DNA from: Desulfovibrio sp. UIB00
GTDB taxonomy: Bacteria; Desulfobacterota; Desulfovibrionia; Desulfovibrionales; Desulfovibrionaceae
DNA length: 64,000 bases
Reading direction: 5' to 3'
NCBI RefSeq assembly: GCF_022508225.1
Contig: NZ_JAETXJ010000004.1
Coordinates: forward strand, 186,001-250,000
Part shown: positions 38,767 through 54,270 of the stretch, piece after piece
Layout: each line of letters starts with the position of its first letter
Numbering within the stretch: position 1 is the stretch's first letter
Translations under genes and position numbers: made by a program
The notes under the pieces: generated by a model
Told to the model about the DNA's origin: nothing
Databases searched by the model: none
Seen by the model: the letters and a program-made list of their open reading frames with translations, nothing else

Positions 38767-40965
38767 ATGAAAAAAGTAATAGAAGTCTGCCCGTACTGCG
38801 CTTCGGGCTGCAAGATCAACCTACTGGTTGAGAATGGCCGCGTGGTTGGCGCAGAAGGCGCCAACGGCCTGACCAACCAGGGGGCCTTGTGCCTCAAGGG
38901 TCTGTATGGCTGGGATTTTATCAACGACACCAAAATCCTGACTCCCAGAGTCAAAAACCCCATGATTCGCCGCAAGCGTGGCGGTGAGTTTGAGGCTGTC
39001 TCCTGGGATACGGCCATCGACTACACCGCATCGCGTCTTACGGCCATCAAGGAAGAATTTGGCCCAGATTCCATCATGGTGTCCGGTTCTTCCCGCTCCA
39101 CCGGCAACGAAACCAACTACATAATGCAAAAATTCGCCCGCGCGGCTCTCGGCACCAATAATGTCGACTGCTGCGCGCGGGTCTGACACGGCCCATCAGT
39201 TGCAGGTCTGCAACAATCAGTCGGCAATGGCGCAATGAGCAACTCCATTGTGGAGATTGAAGATACTAAATGCTTGTTCATCTTTGGGTGGAATCCGGCA
39301 GATTCGCACCCCATTATCGCCCGCCGGGTGGTAAAGGCGAAAGAAAAAGGGGCAACCATCATTGTCTGTGATCCGCGCAAGATTGAAACTGCGCGCATCG
39401 CCGACCTGCATGTTCCCCTGAAAAACGGTTCCAACGTGGCCTTCGTCAATGCTTTGATGAACGTCATTATTAACGAGGGACTCGCGGACAAGGAGTTCAT
39501 AGAAAAGTACACGACTGGCTTTGCAGAACTTAAAGCCATTGTGGACAACTATCCTCCTGAAGCGGTTACGGAAATCACGGGCATTGATGCCGAAACCATC
39601 CGCAAGACCGCCCGTATGTACGCCACGGCCCCAGAGGGCGCAGGCATATACTGGGGCATGGGCGTTTGCCAGTTCTATCAGGGTGTGGAGACCGTACGGG
39701 CACTGACCTCCATGGCTCTGATTACCGGCAACATAGGCAAACCTCACACCGGCGTTGCTCCGGTGCGTGGGCAGAACAACGTGCAGGGCGCCTGCGACAT
39801 GGGCGCGTTGCCCAACGTGTTTGTGGGCTACCAGAGCGTGACAGACCCGGCCGTGCGCGAAAAATTCGCCAAGGCCTGGGGTGTCCCTGTTGAAAAAATG
39901 TCCCCCAAGGTGGGGCATTTCCTGAGTGAAGTCGCCGCGAGCGCTTCTGCTGGCAGGCTGAAGGCATTCTACTGCATGGGTGAAGACCCCTTGCAGACAG
40001 AACCCGACCTTTCTGGCGTGCGTAGCGGCTTCAGCAAGCTTGACCTGCTCATTGTGCAGGACTGCTTTATGACCAAGACCGCAGCCGTGGCCGACGTGAT
40101 CTTCCCCACCACCACGTGGGGCGAACACGAAGGCGTATACTCGGCTGCCGACCGTGGCTTCCAGCGCTTCTACAAGGCTGTGGAACCGCAGGGCGATGTA
40201 AAGGTGGACTGGGACATCATCTGCCGCCTGTCCACAGCCATGGGCTATCCCATGCAGTACAACAACACCAGAGAGATCTGGAACGAGCTGATCTCGCTCT
40301 CGCCCAAGTATGCGGAAGCGACCTATGAAAAGCTCGATGCAAACGGCGGGCTTGGCTACATCCAGTGGCCCTGCACCAAGGATGCCCCCAACGGCACCCA
40401 GGTTCTTTACGCACAGCCCGACGGCAGCATCAAGTTTGAAACCCCGGACGGCCTGGGCCACCTTTTTACGGTGGAATGGGTCCCGCCTGTGGAAAAAATC
40501 AGCTCCGAGTTCCCGCTGGTGCTTTCTACCGTGCGCGAAGTGGGCCACTACTCCTGCCGCTCCATGACAGGCAACTGCAAGGCGCTGGCGGCACTGGCGG
40601 ACGAACCCGGCTTTGTGCAGATGAACGACAAGGATGCGGAAGCCCTCGGCATCCGCGACCATGAGCTTGTGTGGGTGCAGTCGCACCACTCCAAGGTCAT
40701 CACCAGGGCGCAGATCAGCCCGCGCACCAACAAGGGCGCGGTGTACATGACCTACCAGTGGTGGATTGGCGCATGCAACGAATTGGTGGGTGAGGTATTG
40801 AGCCCCATCACCAAGACGCCGGAATACAAGTATGTGCCTGTTAGGGTTGAAAAAATAGAAGATCAGACATGGGCTGAAAGCCATGTGGTGCAGGTATACA
40901 GCGAATTGAAGCAACGCCTGCGCAAGGAAAAGGCCAACGGCACAGCAATGTCCGTAACAGCCTGA
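38767..40965 (+). CDS. fdhF: formate dehydrogenase H, selenocysteine form
   Basis: Molybdopterin formate dehydrogenase of 732 residues when UGA at 39184-39186 is read as selenocysteine 140. One [4Fe-4S] is bound by C8, C11, C15 and C42, the same numbers as E. coli FdhF, and Sec140-His141 also matches. Without readthrough the gene would look split at 39186 and 39235; the bases between encode HGPSVAGLQQSVGNGA in frame, identical in pattern to the Cys paralogue downstream, so this is not a pseudogene. A SECIS hairpin follows the UGA. It should need SelB, SelC, SelA and SelD from elsewhere in the genome, and FdhD for sulfuration of molybdenum. Confidence 0.96.
39184..39224 (+). promoter_or_regulatory. 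SECIS element and UGA of fdhF
   Basis: After UGA (39184-39186) come 12 nt, then GTTGCA-GGTC-TGCAAC (39199-39214), a 6-bp stem with a GGTC loop. The loop starts 18 nt after the UGA and has G in its first two places, as in the E. coli fdhF SECIS, to which the primary sequence is also very close. Confidence 0.93.
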
Positions 40966-48271: not shown

Positions 48272-49135
48272 ATGAACAACCGCACTCTGCTTTACGCCCT
48301 GACGCTCACCTGTATTCTGCTGATATTTGGCGCGTGGACGCTGGCCTTTTTCCATTACGGGGCAGCCGTGCGGCAAACCCCGGCACCGCAGGCGCTGGCA
48401 ACATTACAGGCAGGCCCGGCAGCAGAACCGCAGTTCAATCCGCCCAAACCGCAGGACGCGCCGGAAGATATCCGAGAAGCCGTCATGCTCGGCTACAATA
48501 TTATCAACGATACGGCGCAGTACGCCCCCGAGCACGTGGGCAACGAACTCGCCTGCGCCACCTGTCATCTCGAGGGCGGCACCAGCAAGGCAAGCATCAC
48601 CCTTGTGGGCGTTGCGGCAACCTATCCGCGTTTTCTGCCAAGCCACGGCTACAGCGCAGATCTTGCCCAGAAAGTGCAGGATTGCTTTGCGCGCAACCTC
48701 AATGCCGCGCCCCCGGCCCTTGACAGCCGCACCATGCAGGCTGTGCTTGCCTATCTGCACTGGATTTCAAAAGATATTCCCGTCTATGCCAAGCTGCCGT
48801 GGACCCTTCCCGCAAAGCTCGACAGCAGCCACAAGCCCGATGCCGCCAGCGGAGCCAGCGTGTATGCAGACAACTGCGCCTCCTGCCACGGCGATACGGG
48901 CGACGGTTCACCCCCGCTCTGGGGCAATGGCGCGTACACTGACGGCTCCACCATGCACGACATAAACACTATTGCCGTGTTCACCCTTCGGTTCATGCCC
49001 CCGGAGGCAGCCAACCTCACGCCGGAACAGGCCCTTGACGTGGCGGCCTATGTGGACGGCCAGCCCCGCCCCCATTACGCGCCCGCAAAGCCCGCAACGA
49101 CAGCGGACGCACCCAAAGCGCCGCAGGGGAAGTAG
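48272..49135 (+). CDS. dihaem cytochrome c, TsdA-like
   Basis: 287-residue exported or membrane-anchored protein: an N-terminal hydrophobic span (about 5-28) and two haem c sites, CATCH at 95-99 and CASCH at 202-206. C138 in VQDCFARNLN matches the pattern around the cysteine haem ligand of TsdA thiosulfate dehydrogenase/tetrathionate reductase, and RFMPP near 240-244 could give the second haem its Met. So it may act on thiosulfate or tetrathionate, or may just pass electrons to the two partners encoded next. It is separated from the next gene by three bases. Confidence 0.75.
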   Translation: MNNRTLLYALTLTCILLIFGAWTLAFFHYGAAVRQTPAPQALATLQAGPAAEPQFNPPKPQDAPEDIREAVMLGYNIINDTAQYAPEHVGNELACATCHLEGGTSKASITLVGVAATYPRFLPSHGYSADLAQKVQDCFARNLNAAPPALDSRTMQAVLAYLHWISKDIPVYAKLPWTLPAKLDSSHKPDAASGASVYADNCASCHGDTGDGSPPLWGNGAYTDGSTMHDINTIAVFTLRFMPPEAANLTPEQALDVAAYVDGQPRPHYAPAKPATTADAPKAPQGK

Positions 49136-49138
49136 GCC

Positions 49139-50491
49139 ATGAACTTTCCCATCCTGCATATTCCTGTGGTGGGCGACGGCATGACCATTGCCCTCAATGC
49201 GGTGCTGCACGTTTATATCAGCCACGGCCTGGCCATAGGCCTCATGACCATGCTGGTGATCTTTCAAACCCTCACATGGAAGGGCAAGGGCGCGTTCTGG
49301 GCCGACATTGCCCGTCGGTTGCTGGGGCCGCTGGTGGTAATTACCACCTCTGTGGGCGCGGTCACAGGCGTGGGCATCTGGATTCTGACCGGGAGCCTCG
49401 CGCCGGAAGGCATCGGCGCGCTCATCCACCTGTTTTTCTGGCCATGGTTTATTGAGTGGTTCGCCTTCACCGCCGAAGTCATTTTGCTGCTCTGCTACTA
49501 CTACCAGTGGGATCGGCTGATAACGCGCAAACCCGGCACCCTGGCCGCCATTGGCTGGGGCTATGTGGGGGCGTCCTTTATCTCTGCGGTTCTTATCACC
49601 GGCATTCTGGGCTTCATGCTCACCCCGCAAGGCTGGCCGTGGGCCAGAAGCTTTACCGAGGCCTATTTCAACCCCACATTTGTGCCGCAGTGCTTTTTAC
49701 GTGTCAGCGGCGGCATGGCGCTGGGCATACTGTTGCTCATGAGTTGGATTGCCTGGCGCTTCAAGGGCACTGCAGAGGAACGCGGCAGAGCCTTACGGGT
49801 CTGCGGAACGGCGTTGCTGCTCTCTCTGGTTGTGACGGCAGCGGCGACCTACGTGTATTTTATGCGGGTGCCGCAAACCTACCTCACGCACTGGAAATTC
49901 TCGGTCGCCACATCCTACCTCTCGCAAATGCCGGACTTTCTGCCAGCGGTCAACGCGGTTGCCGCGCTTGTGCTCCTGCTGACAGCCCTGGCGGCAATGG
50001 CGCGCTCACGGCTTGCATGTCGCTTGCTGTGCTTCCCGGCCCTGATCATGAGCCTGTGCTTTGTCATGGAATTTGAGCGCGTGCGCGAATTTATTCGCGG
50101 CCCGTACCTGATGCCGGGCTATATGCACGCCAGCCAGATAACCCTTGTGGAAAGCGAGGCGCTGGCAGCCCAGAACGCCCCCCTGTTGCCCCGGCTGCGC
50201 TGGGTCAACACCAGCGGCAATCTGTCCCCGGCAACCCAGGCCGCCAGAACGCTTTTTGCGGCCAATTGCGGCGTATGCCACGCGGAAAGCGGCATCAACG
50301 GCATTGATCAACGCCTTGCGGGACGCTCGGCAGACGGCATCAACGCCATGCTGGGCATTACGCAGAGGCTGGCCCCCTACATGACGCCCTTTGTGGGTTC
50401 GGAGCAGGAACGCGCCATGCTCACGGAATATTTGTTCCAGCTTTCCTCCAACTATTCCCGCCGCGCCCAACAAGCCGCCAGGGAGAAGTAG
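49139..50491 (+). CDS. cytochrome bd-superfamily-like subunit with C-terminal haem c
   Basis: 450-residue membrane protein with about nine spans followed by a periplasmic cytochrome c domain (CGVCH at 377-381). H24, H29, the GAVTGVGIWILTGSLAPEGI loop, W105-WFAFTAE and E311-xxRVREFIRGPY resemble CydA-like proteins of the OR-C type, which carry haem c at the C-terminus. Whether it reduces oxygen or another acceptor cannot be told from sequence. It lies in a tight operon with two other cytochromes. Confidence 0.65.
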   Translation: MNFPILHIPVVGDGMTIALNAVLHVYISHGLAIGLMTMLVIFQTLTWKGKGAFWADIARRLLGPLVVITTSVGAVTGVGIWILTGSLAPEGIGALIHLFFWPWFIEWFAFTAEVILLLCYYYQWDRLITRKPGTLAAIGWGYVGASFISAVLITGILGFMLTPQGWPWARSFTEAYFNPTFVPQCFLRVSGGMALGILLLMSWIAWRFKGTAEERGRALRVCGTALLLSLVVTAAATYVYFMRVPQTYLTHWKFSVATSYLSQMPDFLPAVNAVAALVLLLTALAAMARSRLACRLLCFPALIMSLCFVMEFERVREFIRGPYLMPGYMHASQITLVESEALAAQNAPLLPRLRWVNTSGNLSPATQAARTLFAANCGVCHAESGINGIDQRLAGRSADGINAMLGITQRLAPYMTPFVGSEQERAMLTEYLFQLSSNYSRRAQQAAREK

Positions 50492-50493
50492 CC

Positions 50494-52053
50494 ATGCAGC
50501 AGTGGACAGACCTGTTTCTCAACAAACCATTGCCCGAAGGCTGGATGCAGGGGTTGCTCTTCATCACTTTTGGCCTGCATCTGCTCTTCGTGCTGCTCAT
50601 GCTTGGCACGGCCATCCTGAGTCTGCTGTTCTTTCTGCGTGATCTGCTGCGTCAGCCCTCGCCAGATCAGCACTGGAACGAGCACGTGGCCCACTCGCAC
50701 ATGGGCCTCAAAAGCCTGGCCGTGGTGCTGGGCGTTGGCCCGCTGCTGCTCATGCAGATAAGTCATCCGCATGCCTTTTTTACGGTTACGGGGCTTTTTT
50801 CGTATGCGTGGCTGGCGATTATTCCGCTGCTGATCACGGCATTTCTGCTGTTTGACGGCTTTGCGCACAAAATTGGCACCAGCGCATGGCTGGCCCTCAT
50901 CTGCGGACTGGTGGGCGTTGCGGCCCTCATGACTGTGCCCGCCATCTTTACCGGGGCGCTGACCCTCATGGAACGCCCTGCGGAGTGGGCCGACTTTGCC
51001 GCCAGCGGCTTCCGCTTTGATGCGCAGTGGATGCCGCACTGGGTGCTGCGCTACCTGCACGTGATGGGCGCGGCTGTGGCCTTTGGCGCGGCTTTTCACC
51101 TGTTTTTCTCCGCCAGAAATGAAAAACAGAAGGCCCCTCTGCTGCGCAAGTGGCTGCTTGGCGCTCTGATGGCTCAGGCCGTCATAGGGCTGGCCCTGCT
51201 GGCAACCATTTTGCCGCAACTGTCCGTTCCGGTGTTGTCGTTCATAAGCCTTGGCGCACTGGCCCTTGGCGCTGCGGTCTGGATTCTGAGGCCGGAATCG
51301 TCAACCGCCGATTACCGCTTGCTGGCCTTGCTGCCCCTTATCTTCGTCTCCATGCTGCTGGCCCGCCAGCTCATGCAGAACGAGGCGCTGGCCCCCGGGC
51401 AGGCGGAAGCTACGGCCCAACGCGAACAGCGCGTTCGGGAACTGGCCCCCTTCAGCCAGAAGGCTCTGGATGCCTTTGCCGTCAAACTGCGCACCGTGTA
51501 CGACAATGGCGACACCATCTATGACGGCGCTTGCGAGCCGTGCCACGGCCTCACCGGACGCGGCGACGGGCCGGAAGCCTCACGGCTGCGCATCCCCGCC
51601 ACAGACCTGACCACCATGCGCACAGACCGGGATTACGTGTATGAAATGGTGCGCGACGGCACCCCCGGTACAGGCATGCCTTATTTTCGCATGTTCGACC
51701 GTGAAAAGCTGGAGAGCCTGCTGGACGCCATGGGCAAGCGCTTTGGCATGTACGCGGCCACGCCGCCCCCCCCCCGCGATATCAGCCCTGTTTCGCTTGA
51801 AGTATGGATAGGTACCTGCGCCAAATGCCATGCGGCCAACGGCAGCGGCAGCCCCTCGGGGCGGGCCATGCAGCCCCCGCCCCCCGATTTTAGGCGCAGC
51901 AGCCTGACCCATGAGCAGGCCCTGAAAATCATTACTGAGGGCTATCCCGGAACAGGCATGCCCGGCTACCGGAATCAGCCTCAGACTGTGCGCGAAGACC
52001 TCGCCATCATCTGCAACAGTTTCCGCGCCGCGCATAACAAGAGCGAAAAATAG
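50494..52053 (+). CDS. membrane protein with two C-terminal haem c domains
   Basis: 519 residues: about eight membrane spans to residue 292, then two cytochrome c domains, CEPCH at 347-351 and CAKCH at 442-446, each followed by a GTGMP motif that may supply the Met ligand. Histidines H29, H64, H68, H91, H93, H182, H189 and H202 in or near spans could bind b haem. It starts two bases after the previous gene and is likely the partner subunit. The membrane part has no firm family assignment by eye. Confidence 0.65.
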   Translation: MQQWTDLFLNKPLPEGWMQGLLFITFGLHLLFVLLMLGTAILSLLFFLRDLLRQPSPDQHWNEHVAHSHMGLKSLAVVLGVGPLLLMQISHPHAFFTVTGLFSYAWLAIIPLLITAFLLFDGFAHKIGTSAWLALICGLVGVAALMTVPAIFTGALTLMERPAEWADFAASGFRFDAQWMPHWVLRYLHVMGAAVAFGAAFHLFFSARNEKQKAPLLRKWLLGALMAQAVIGLALLATILPQLSVPVLSFISLGALALGAAVWILRPESSTADYRLLALLPLIFVSMLLARQLMQNEALAPGQAEATAQREQRVRELAPFSQKALDAFAVKLRTVYDNGDTIYDGACEPCHGLTGRGDGPEASRLRIPATDLTTMRTDRDYVYEMVRDGTPGTGMPYFRMFDREKLESLLDAMGKRFGMYAATPPPPRDISPVSLEVWIGTCAKCHAANGSGSPSGRAMQPPPPDFRRSSLTHEQALKIITEGYPGTGMPGYRNQPQTVREDLAIICNSFRAAHNKSEK

Positions 52054-52126: not shown

Positions 52127-52161
52127 CAAAGCCCCCGTTCCATAATGGATCGGGGGCTTTG
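52127..52161. terminator. bidirectional terminator
   Basis: CAAAGCCCCCG and CGGGGGCTTTG with an inner CCAT/ATGG pairing. It lies between the cytochrome operon and the oppositely directed small gene at 52173-52370 and should serve both. Confidence 0.85.
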
Positions 52162-52172
52162 ATTTCAATCAG

Positions 52173-52370
52173 TTACTTGCTCTGTTTGCGGGCGGCTTTT
52201 CTGGCCTTGCTGCGCAAACGCCGTTCTTCGTCATCAAGCAGGGCACGCTGCTTGTCAAAGGGAATTCAACCGCAGTTCAGGCGGTCTGTGGGCAGCCAGC
52301 CTTTTTTGAGGGCAAGCAGGTATATGGCGGCAATACCGCCAAACACCAGCAGGAGAATCAAAGTATCCAT
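52173..52370 (-). CDS. candidate small membrane selenoprotein (in-frame UGA)
   Basis: Reading UGA at 52268-52266 as selenocysteine gives 65 residues: a single membrane span (about 3-21, starting MDTLILLLVFGG), a KKGWLPTDR linker, the motif Cys33-Gly34-Sec35, then a highly charged tail (IPFDKQRALLDDEERRLRS to KQSK). GGAGG lies just before ATG 52370. Downstream of UGA a hairpin is found at the same distance as in fdhF. Without readthrough the product is a 34-residue peptide. The gene starts 15 bases after the GH3 hydrolase stop on the same strand. I know no family with this sequence. Function unknown; a Cys-x-Sec pair suggests redox chemistry at the membrane. Confidence 0.6.
52230..52268 (-). 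promoter_or_regulatory. putative SECIS of the small ORF
   Basis: After UGA come 11 nt, then CAAGCAG-CGTGCC-CTGCTTG (52254 to 52235), a perfect 7-bp stem with a 6-nt loop. The loop starts 18 nt after UGA and has G as its second base, meeting the general rules for bacterial SECIS. It lies inside the coding frame as expected. Confidence 0.55.
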
Positions 52371-52385
52371 AAAACCTCCGCCGCT

Positions 52386-53672
52386 TTATCTGGTCCAGGG
52401 ATAGAGCGCCGATGATCCATCGGCGGCGGCCCTGGCGGCAGTGGCGCGGCTTGCGTACAGGTTAGTGATGCGCAGCCATGATTCCATGATCCGCTGGCGC
52501 GAAATGCGCCCGCTTTCCACAAGCCCTCGCAAGGTCTCAAAAGCCTTGCTGGGCAGGGTTTCGTCCCAATACAAGTTATTGCCGAACAGCAGAATGTCCA
52601 CCCCGGCGTTAACCGCCAGCAGCATTGCCTGCTCCATGCCGTAATGGTCGGTAATGGCCTTCATCTGCATGTCGTCGCTGATGATCACGCCCTGCCAGCC
52701 CATGCGCCCGCGCAACAGGTCGGCAACAACAGCGCGGGAAAGCGTGGCAGGATACTGCGGATCAAGCCCCTTGTGGTACAGATGCCCAAGCATCACCATA
52801 CCGGGCCAGCCCTGTGCAAAAGCCTGCGCATAGGGCGCAAGGTCGGCCTTGGCATTCCAGCTGCGGGTGATATCCGTCAGCCCCAGATGCGAATCCTTCT
52901 GCGCGCCGCCCTGACCGGGAAAATGCTTGAGCGCGGGGATGATGCCGCTCTGCGCCAGCCCCTGCCCAAAGGCCAGAGCGTGCGCAGCCACAAGGGCCGG
53001 ATTGGGGCTGAAGCTGCGCTCCAGCGCGCCAATGGCCGGGTTGGCGGGGTTGCTGTTCACATCCGCCACCGGGGCCAGATCAACAGAAATTCCCAGCGAG
53101 GCCAGTTCCACGCCCAGTTGCCGGGCAATGGCGCGGGTTTTCTCCGGGCTGGCCGCGCCCATGCTCTGGGCGGAAGGCAGATCGGCAAAACCGCGTTGCG
53201 GCTTGAGCCGCCGCACCCGTCCGCCCTCCTGGTCAACAGCTATGAACATGGGACAGGGGGACGCGGCCCGCAGCGAGGCTGTGAGCCGCCGCACCTGCTG
53301 GGGCGAAATGATATTGCGTTCGCCGCCTGTGGTAACATCCCGGTCAAACAGGATAATATGTCCCACATGCCCGGCGCGCACATGGGCAAGAAAGGCATCG
53401 CCCTGGGGCAGATCCGCTCCGCGAAAACCCAGCATGAGCATGGAGCCGATCATGACATCCAGCGATGGCGCGACACTGCCCGTATTTGTTTTAGCGGGCG
53501 CGGCCTGCGCAGCCGAGGCTTCGGCGCTCAGCAGGGGCGAAAAACAGAGGGCCAGAGCAAATGCAAGCAGACAAAGTGCAGCCCCGCCCTTACGCGCGGC
53601 AGCAAAAAAACTCTGGCTGGCGGAACAGCGCCTCACCAAGGGGGATTTGCCCCTGTTTACAGTATCAGACAC
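52386..53672 (-). CDS. GH3 glycoside hydrolase, NagZ-like, exported
   Basis: Family 3 glycosidase of 428 residues, like beta-N-acetylhexosaminidase NagZ. ALKHFPGQGGAQKDSHLGL holds the NagZ-type Asp-His loop, VISDDMQMKAI the nucleophile Asp, and FIAVDQEGGRVRRL the substrate Asp-Arg region. An N-terminal hydrophobic segment (about residues 31-46) after a basic start suggests export; classical NagZ is cytosolic. The start is taken at GTG 53672, ten bases after the upstream stop; a longer frame to 53873 overlaps that gene. Confidence 0.8.
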   Translation of the reverse strand: MSDTVNRGKSPLVRRCSASQSFFAAARKGGAALCLLAFALALCFSPLLSAEASAAQAAPAKTNTGSVAPSLDVMIGSMLMLGFRGADLPQGDAFLAHVRAGHVGHIILFDRDVTTGGERNIISPQQVRRLTASLRAASPCPMFIAVDQEGGRVRRLKPQRGFADLPSAQSMGAASPEKTRAIARQLGVELASLGISVDLAPVADVNSNPANPAIGALERSFSPNPALVAAHALAFGQGLAQSGIIPALKHFPGQGGAQKDSHLGLTDITRSWNAKADLAPYAQAFAQGWPGMVMLGHLYHKGLDPQYPATLSRAVVADLLRGRMGWQGVIISDDMQMKAITDHYGMEQAMLLAVNAGVDILLFGNNLYWDETLPSKAFETLRGLVESGRISRQRIMESWLRITNLYASRATAARAAADGSSALYPWTR

Positions 53673-53682
53673 GACTTTCGCC

Positions 53683-54270
53683 TCAGCTTTCAGGATCAAG
53701 CGTTGTGTAAGGGGCCTGCCCTTGGCAACCAAGGCACTGCGGGCCATGATCCAGAGGATAGGCCTCGCCGCAGCGGGGGCAAATGCCGATGGTGCCCATG
53801 TGCCCATGCCCCAGAAAATTCTTGTCCACCTGCACGCGCTGCACCTTACAGATACTGTGCCCGGCTTCTTCAATTTGCCGTTCTAACTCCACGATATCCT
53901 GCGCATGCTTGGGCTTTTCCTTCATGAACCAGCCCTGGATTTCCGGATAGGCGAAGAGTTTTGCCGGGTCTATGCTCACGCGCACGCCCAGGCCTGTTTT
54001 TTTGTCGTACAGCGAAACCGCGTAAAGCCCCAGGTCGCGCACATGCAACCGTTTGTTGCCCGTGCTGCACAGGCTGAGCAGCTGCACCGCGTCCGGCAGG
54101 CATTTGCTGGTTTCCGCCAGTGCTTCAAAAAGGGTTCCTTCGGGCAGCATACCCTTGGCAAGCTCGACCATATAGCCACCGATAAGCAGGCCAGGAGCCG
54201 CGCAACCGTGAAACTCCTCTGCGATCCCGTGGAATTGCGAAAACGTATACGCGCCGATATTCATGGACAT
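53683..54270 (-). CDS. FmdE family zinc-finger protein
   Basis: 195-residue protein of the FmdE family (named after formylmethanofuran dehydrogenase subunit E, common near Mo/W formate enzymes in sulfate reducers). Motifs: FHGCAAPGLLIGGYM at 20-34 (the usual form is close to FHGHxCPGxxxG, so the ligands shift) and a C-terminal zinc ribbon CPRC and CLGC. An ATG two codons later (54264) is an alternative. Its partner is unknown; it may assist Mo enzymes. Confidence 0.75.
   Translation of the reverse strand: MSMNIGAYTFSQFHGIAEEFHGCAAPGLLIGGYMVELAKGMLPEGTLFEALAETSKCLPDAVQLLSLCSTGNKRLHVRDLGLYAVSLYDKKTGLGVRVSIDPAKLFAYPEIQGWFMKEKPKHAQDIVELERQIEEAGHSICKVQRVQVDKNFLGHGHMGTIGICPRCGEAYPLDHGPQCLGCQGQAPYTTLDPES

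Follow-up and report, generated by a model that had tools for sequence, protein, structure and literature searches.

The question raised by this locus is whether a UGA codon on its minus strand terminates a 34-residue membrane peptide or encodes selenocysteine (Sec) within a protein of 65 residues. In the stretch of Desulfovibrio sp. UIB00 DNA analyzed here (64,000 nucleotides, referred to as the window), the gene occupies positions 52370 to 52173 of the minus strand: an ATG at 52370 opens a run of 34 codons, which is followed by the in-frame UGA as codon 35 (52268-52266), 30 further codons (52265-52176) and a TAA (52175-52173). With U denoting Sec, the translation reads MDTLILLLVFGGIAAIYLLALKKGWLPTDRLNCGUIPFDKQRALLDDEERRLRSKARKAARKQSK. 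A GGAGG ribosome-binding site (52375-52379, minus strand) is located 4 nt before the ATG, and a GGAG-type site precedes the start of every homologue. An earlier note on this DNA had described the frame, its GGAGG, its membrane span and the UGA directly after Asn-Cys-Gly, and both the coordinates and the sequence given there are correct. The gene lies 15 nt behind the stop codon of a GH3/NagZ-like beta-N-acetylhexosaminidase gene (52386-53873, minus strand; the name rests on its sequence, and the start codon is uncertain), and on account of this short gap the two are probably co-transcribed. By eye, an inverted repeat 3' of the TAA (AAAGCCCCCG..CGGGGGCTTT, 52128-52160) resembles a Rho-independent terminator; a consensus terminator scan did not flag it.

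Taken for the single genome, the open reading frame and the hairpin that follows the UGA are weak evidence. The hairpin (52235-52254, minus strand) consists of a perfect 7-bp stem, CAAGCAG/CTGCTTG, and a 6-nt loop, CGTGCC, which begins 18 nt after the UGA and carries G and U at its second and third positions. It thereby meets the rule for bacterial SECIS elements, according to which the apical loop is located 16-37 nt after the UGA and has a G within its first two positions (PMC13188914). The UGA of the formate dehydrogenase alpha subunit in the same window (39184-39186, plus strand, within ARVUHGPSV) provides an internal reference for SECIS spacing in this organism; its apical loop is likewise situated 18 nt downstream, so that the equal spacing claimed in the earlier note is borne out. 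When the post-UGA peptide is recoded synonymously, a comparable hairpin forms in about 17% of cases, and free energy by itself does not distinguish the real hairpin from the recodings. Three open reading frames in the window, moreover, combine a ribosome-binding site and a TGA end with at least 25 open codons beyond it. It is for these two reasons that the single-genome case remains weak, and on the strength of the recodings we reject the hairpin alone as proof of a selenoprotein. An Rfam search of the locus returned only sub-threshold chance matches.

The comparative case is strong and lifts the gene far above chance. When 288 family genomes were searched in translation with stops read through, 12 carriers emerged, all of the same genus (12 of its 79 genomes) and all full length, with 59-98% identity to the window protein; a profile search of 348 class genomes recovered the same 12. 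These homologues represent 11 distinct sequences, which form the 11 rows of the alignment, and range from 60 to 67 residues. TGA is present at the identical codon in all 12 and is flanked on both sides by conserved protein, the invariant residues being D29, C33, G34, U35, P37, F38, D39, K40, R42, A43, L45, E49 and R51; the Cys33-Gly34-Sec35 motif (52266-52274, minus strand) is thus without exception. In one alignment row (L018 of alignment A1) a last 'C' suggested a second Sec; this was rejected, as a real UGA stop had been read as Sec. The earlier note had called the 30 codons up to the TAA coding-like. Indeed, the alignment beyond the UGA gives a coding signal only in the frame of the UGA (z = 3.7; none of 2000 column shuffles was as good), with a BLOSUM score of +2.61 in frame versus -0.96 and -0.85 in the other two. 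Third codon positions are the most variable there, conservative replacements predominate and pN/pS is 0.45 over 18 codons; divergence per site is about 0.70 beyond the stop codon and 0.58 ahead of the start.

Conservation extends to the hairpin, which is found in every homologue and is bulged in one clade. Within its codons, GAC AAG CRG CGT GCY CWG CTT, four of the five fully conserved degenerate positions are synonymously invariant, as against 3 of 18 elsewhere. GAC AAG, CGT and CTT show no synonymous change at all in the 11 distinct sequences, and most other conserved codons vary. Since the stem is almost invariant, ordinary covariation is nearly absent and hardly any of it is seen in the stem pairs; in the deviating clade CAG has changed to CGG together with a change of CTG to CAG, and the stem persists, now with a bulged A and a loop of 5 nt whose distance from the UGA is unchanged. 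Each of the three observations that had been named in advance as refuting the proposal, namely homologues that all stop at residue 34, a lack of conservation after the UGA and absence of the hairpin in relatives, has therefore failed to materialize.

The machinery for decoding UGA as Sec is at hand. The earlier note had asserted that the organism uses Sec; the window's own genome has a tRNA-Sec about 9 kb beyond the window (G000:C4:259044-259133). All 12 carriers possess tRNA-Sec with scores of 74-80 bits; in same-genus genomes chosen for the absence of SelB the scores are about 46-48 bits. SelB was detected above the curated cut-off in 11 of the 12 carriers and in 57 of the 79 genomes of the genus. 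It was not found in carrier G092 (L015 / L098), a 40-contig draft that does contain tRNA-Sec; the close sister G093 has SelB, and we infer that an assembly gap is the likely cause. SelB and Sec-tRNA(Sec) would accordingly read the in-frame UGA under the direction of the downstream hairpin, an inference supported by conservation and by no experiment.

We are therefore highly confident that the gene encodes a genuine selenoprotein, the first of a new family whose members are small, bitopic membrane proteins, with the reservation that no experiment has shown the incorporation of selenium. It is a new selenoprotein family and not a new mechanism. The earlier note had suggested searching relatives for UGA or Cys at position 35, with Cys as strong support. 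The first was met in 12 of 12 homologues and the second in none: no version with Cys, Ser or anything other than UGA was apparent in 288 genomes of the family, 348 of the class, 395 of the phylum and 155 of further classes, sets that overlap. The Sec position consequently lacks this independent confirmation, and the absence of Cys versions from these searches makes Sec appear obligate for function. The family thus rests on the conservation of UGA with UGA and is the more unusual for it; few selenoproteins, if any, would be expected to have Sec in every carrier species and no Cys version. According to the authors of deep-Sep, Cys homologues now seem to exist for all known selenoproteins; they add that families lacking such homologues may be lost in filtering and that their method may fail in such cases (PMC12013277).

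Several distant profile hits were inspected in translation and rejected as chance matches. The one in G561 (KGWLRFDQSVCGC) has no membrane span before it, that in G777 (E = 4e-4) lies inside a KdpA-like protein, and further hits with E near 0.01, among them G413 and G541, lack a similar architecture. A 31-residue open reading frame in G069 (L029), MNLAGWYYLALCGIALVTLFAVKKGWLRFRD, resembles the membrane half of the family, including LFAVKKGWLRF, and ends before the Cys-Gly-Sec motif; without the C-terminal half it was not counted. No relatives were found among plasmids and viral contigs.

Judging from the genomes searched, the family does not extend beyond one genus-level group, apparently of Desulfovibrio-like sulfate reducers. 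An rpoB tree of 30 genomes of the genus places the carriers in three well-supported clades, and three changes on the tree are needed to explain them. The gene resides in a different and unrelated context in each clade, that is after nagZ (in this one clade of the three only), near an EAL/GGDEF gene with a chemoreceptor gene next to it, or divergent from a flagellar-cap-like gene; the names of the neighbors were read from their sequences and not assigned by family search. In non-carriers that possess nagZ, the selenoprotein gene is absent downstream of it. No operon partner is conserved across the three loci, and an inference of function from operon structure was rejected on these grounds. From the three loci and the clade pattern we conclude that the gene is a single-gene unit without a fixed partner that has moved or has repeatedly been lost. 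An operon on the plus strand of the window (48272-52053) runs convergently toward the selenoprotein gene. Its products are a cytochrome c with CxxCH and two multi-span proteins, of which the first resembles cytochrome bd and has a CxxCH domain at its end and the second carries two CxxCH motifs; the operon is conserved beside the selenoprotein gene in the nagZ clade only.

The protein meets the criterion for single-pass membrane proteins, namely a single hydrophobic helix, about 20 residues long, that is flanked by positive residues at one of its ends. In the window protein the helix is predicted at about residues 3-22 (52305-52364, minus strand; best-19-residue mean hydropathy 2.62) and KKGW follows directly; across the members this mean is 2.6-2.95, the N-terminal flank has a charge of -1 and KK or RK follows the span in all. 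From hydropathy and the positive-inside rule we infer a topology with the N-terminus outside and the C-terminus inside. AlphaFold2, run with the 11-row alignment, predicts a helix at residues 2-22, an unstructured loop at 23-38 containing C33-G34-U35 and a second helix at 39-63 (mean pLDDT 70, with low values in the loop); the extension encoded after the UGA would thus consist of the IPFDK segment and a charged helix. The flexible loop may position Cys-Gly-Sec at the cytoplasmic face of the membrane, with the strongly charged C-terminal helix beyond. Cys33 and Sec35 could then form a reversible selenenylsulfide couple, the protein being anchored in the membrane as a redox relay or as a repair factor, and its charged helix would dock to a partner membrane complex or to a peripheral redox protein. 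We regard this as the most likely role and put it forward tentatively, at somewhat less than even chances; it is no more than an inference because no conserved operon partner links the gene to a pathway.

It is possible, if unlikely, that Cys-Gly-Sec instead binds soft metals or metalloids (Hg, Cu, As, Se) at the membrane and is not a redox pair. Small Cys-containing membrane peptides often accompany metal transporters, and a small protein with Cys and Sec one residue apart would suit such a function; furthermore, metal binding has been proposed for some predicted selenoproteins with CU-type motifs (PMC13188914). However, no metal-resistance gene was seen among the neighbors read at the three loci, and only a single Cys accompanies the Sec. 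About as unlikely, though again possible, is that the protein belongs to a larger membrane complex as one of its small subunits, structural or regulatory and of the CcoS or KdpF type, with Sec serving that complex. A single short span with a charged helix is compatible with it, as is the convergence of the window gene with the cytochrome c/quinol-oxidase-like operon at 48272-52053, but the EAL/GGDEF and chemoreceptor genes or flagellar cap genes that adjoin the other two clades provide no common partner. Both alternatives leave the selenoprotein itself untouched, and the redox couple is retained as the preferred reading of its role.

Two further explanations dispense with selenium. The UGA could be a true stop, the product a 34-residue peptide that already contains the membrane span, and the remainder a relic or a separately started peptide, for which a GTG directly after the UGA in 6 of the 11 distinct sequences offers a possible restart. 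This codon is ATT, ATA, ATC, GTT or GTG and invariably specifies Ile or Val; most of the five forms are not ordinary start codons, so that a restart is not a conserved feature, and with ATA, ATC, ATT or GTT in the other clade there is no conserved start. The frame, moreover, is free of insertions and deletions within the conserved core, and in none of the 12 genomes has the UGA been replaced by TAA or TAG, which leaves this explanation very improbable. Readthrough with tryptophan or another standard residue, possible in principle as the sequence does not tell which residue is inserted, is just as hard to credit in view of the tRNA-Sec in all carriers and of a hairpin at SECIS spacing that is constrained at synonymous sites. 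The UGA is thus best read as Sec.

The family appears not to have been named previously, as had been suspected from the sequence; our coverage of the literature is incomplete and a report naming it is not excluded. None of the 11 members matched a model above noise in Pfam and NCBIfam (June 2026), and no entry among the 119 prokaryotic selenoprotein families of the 2026 inventory describes such a protein (PMC13188914, Table 1). The families that the inventory credits to another study (PMC12013261) have NCBIfam models, none of which matched. Standard annotation would miss the family, since it would record a 34-codon reading frame stopping at UGA, and selenoprotein finders that depend on Cys homologues cannot confirm it. 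This suggests that further small families with Sec only are still hidden. At 65 residues, the protein offers a genetically simple case in which to ask why selenium, and not sulfur, is needed next to the membrane.

Among known bacterial selenoproteins, those with a CxU motif come closest: the UshA-like proteins (NF041198), ferredoxin-thioredoxin reductase (NF041072), rhodanese form 3 (NF041203) and thioredoxin-like Sec.1 all have Cys and a UGA-encoded Sec one residue apart. They are recognized enzyme or redox domains, whereas the new family comprises proteins of 60-67 residues with one span and without an NCBIfam match. The FeoB-associated Cys-rich membrane protein (PF12669) and CcoS-like bitopic peptides share the general build, in which a short span at the N-terminus leads into a cytoplasmic tail that carries cysteines or charges. 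No member of the new family matched the Pfam and NCBIfam models for PF12669 and CcoS-like small peptides even at E = 10, no FeoB gene was seen beside the selenoprotein gene, and families of either type are not known to contain Sec. Eukaryotic selenoproteins K and S differ in belonging to another domain of life, in their type of SECIS element and in carrying Sec near the C-terminal end, and no sequence relation is claimed. They are alike in the way they work, and in this only: small, single-span proteins that hold Sec in a charged or flexible cytoplasmic tail.
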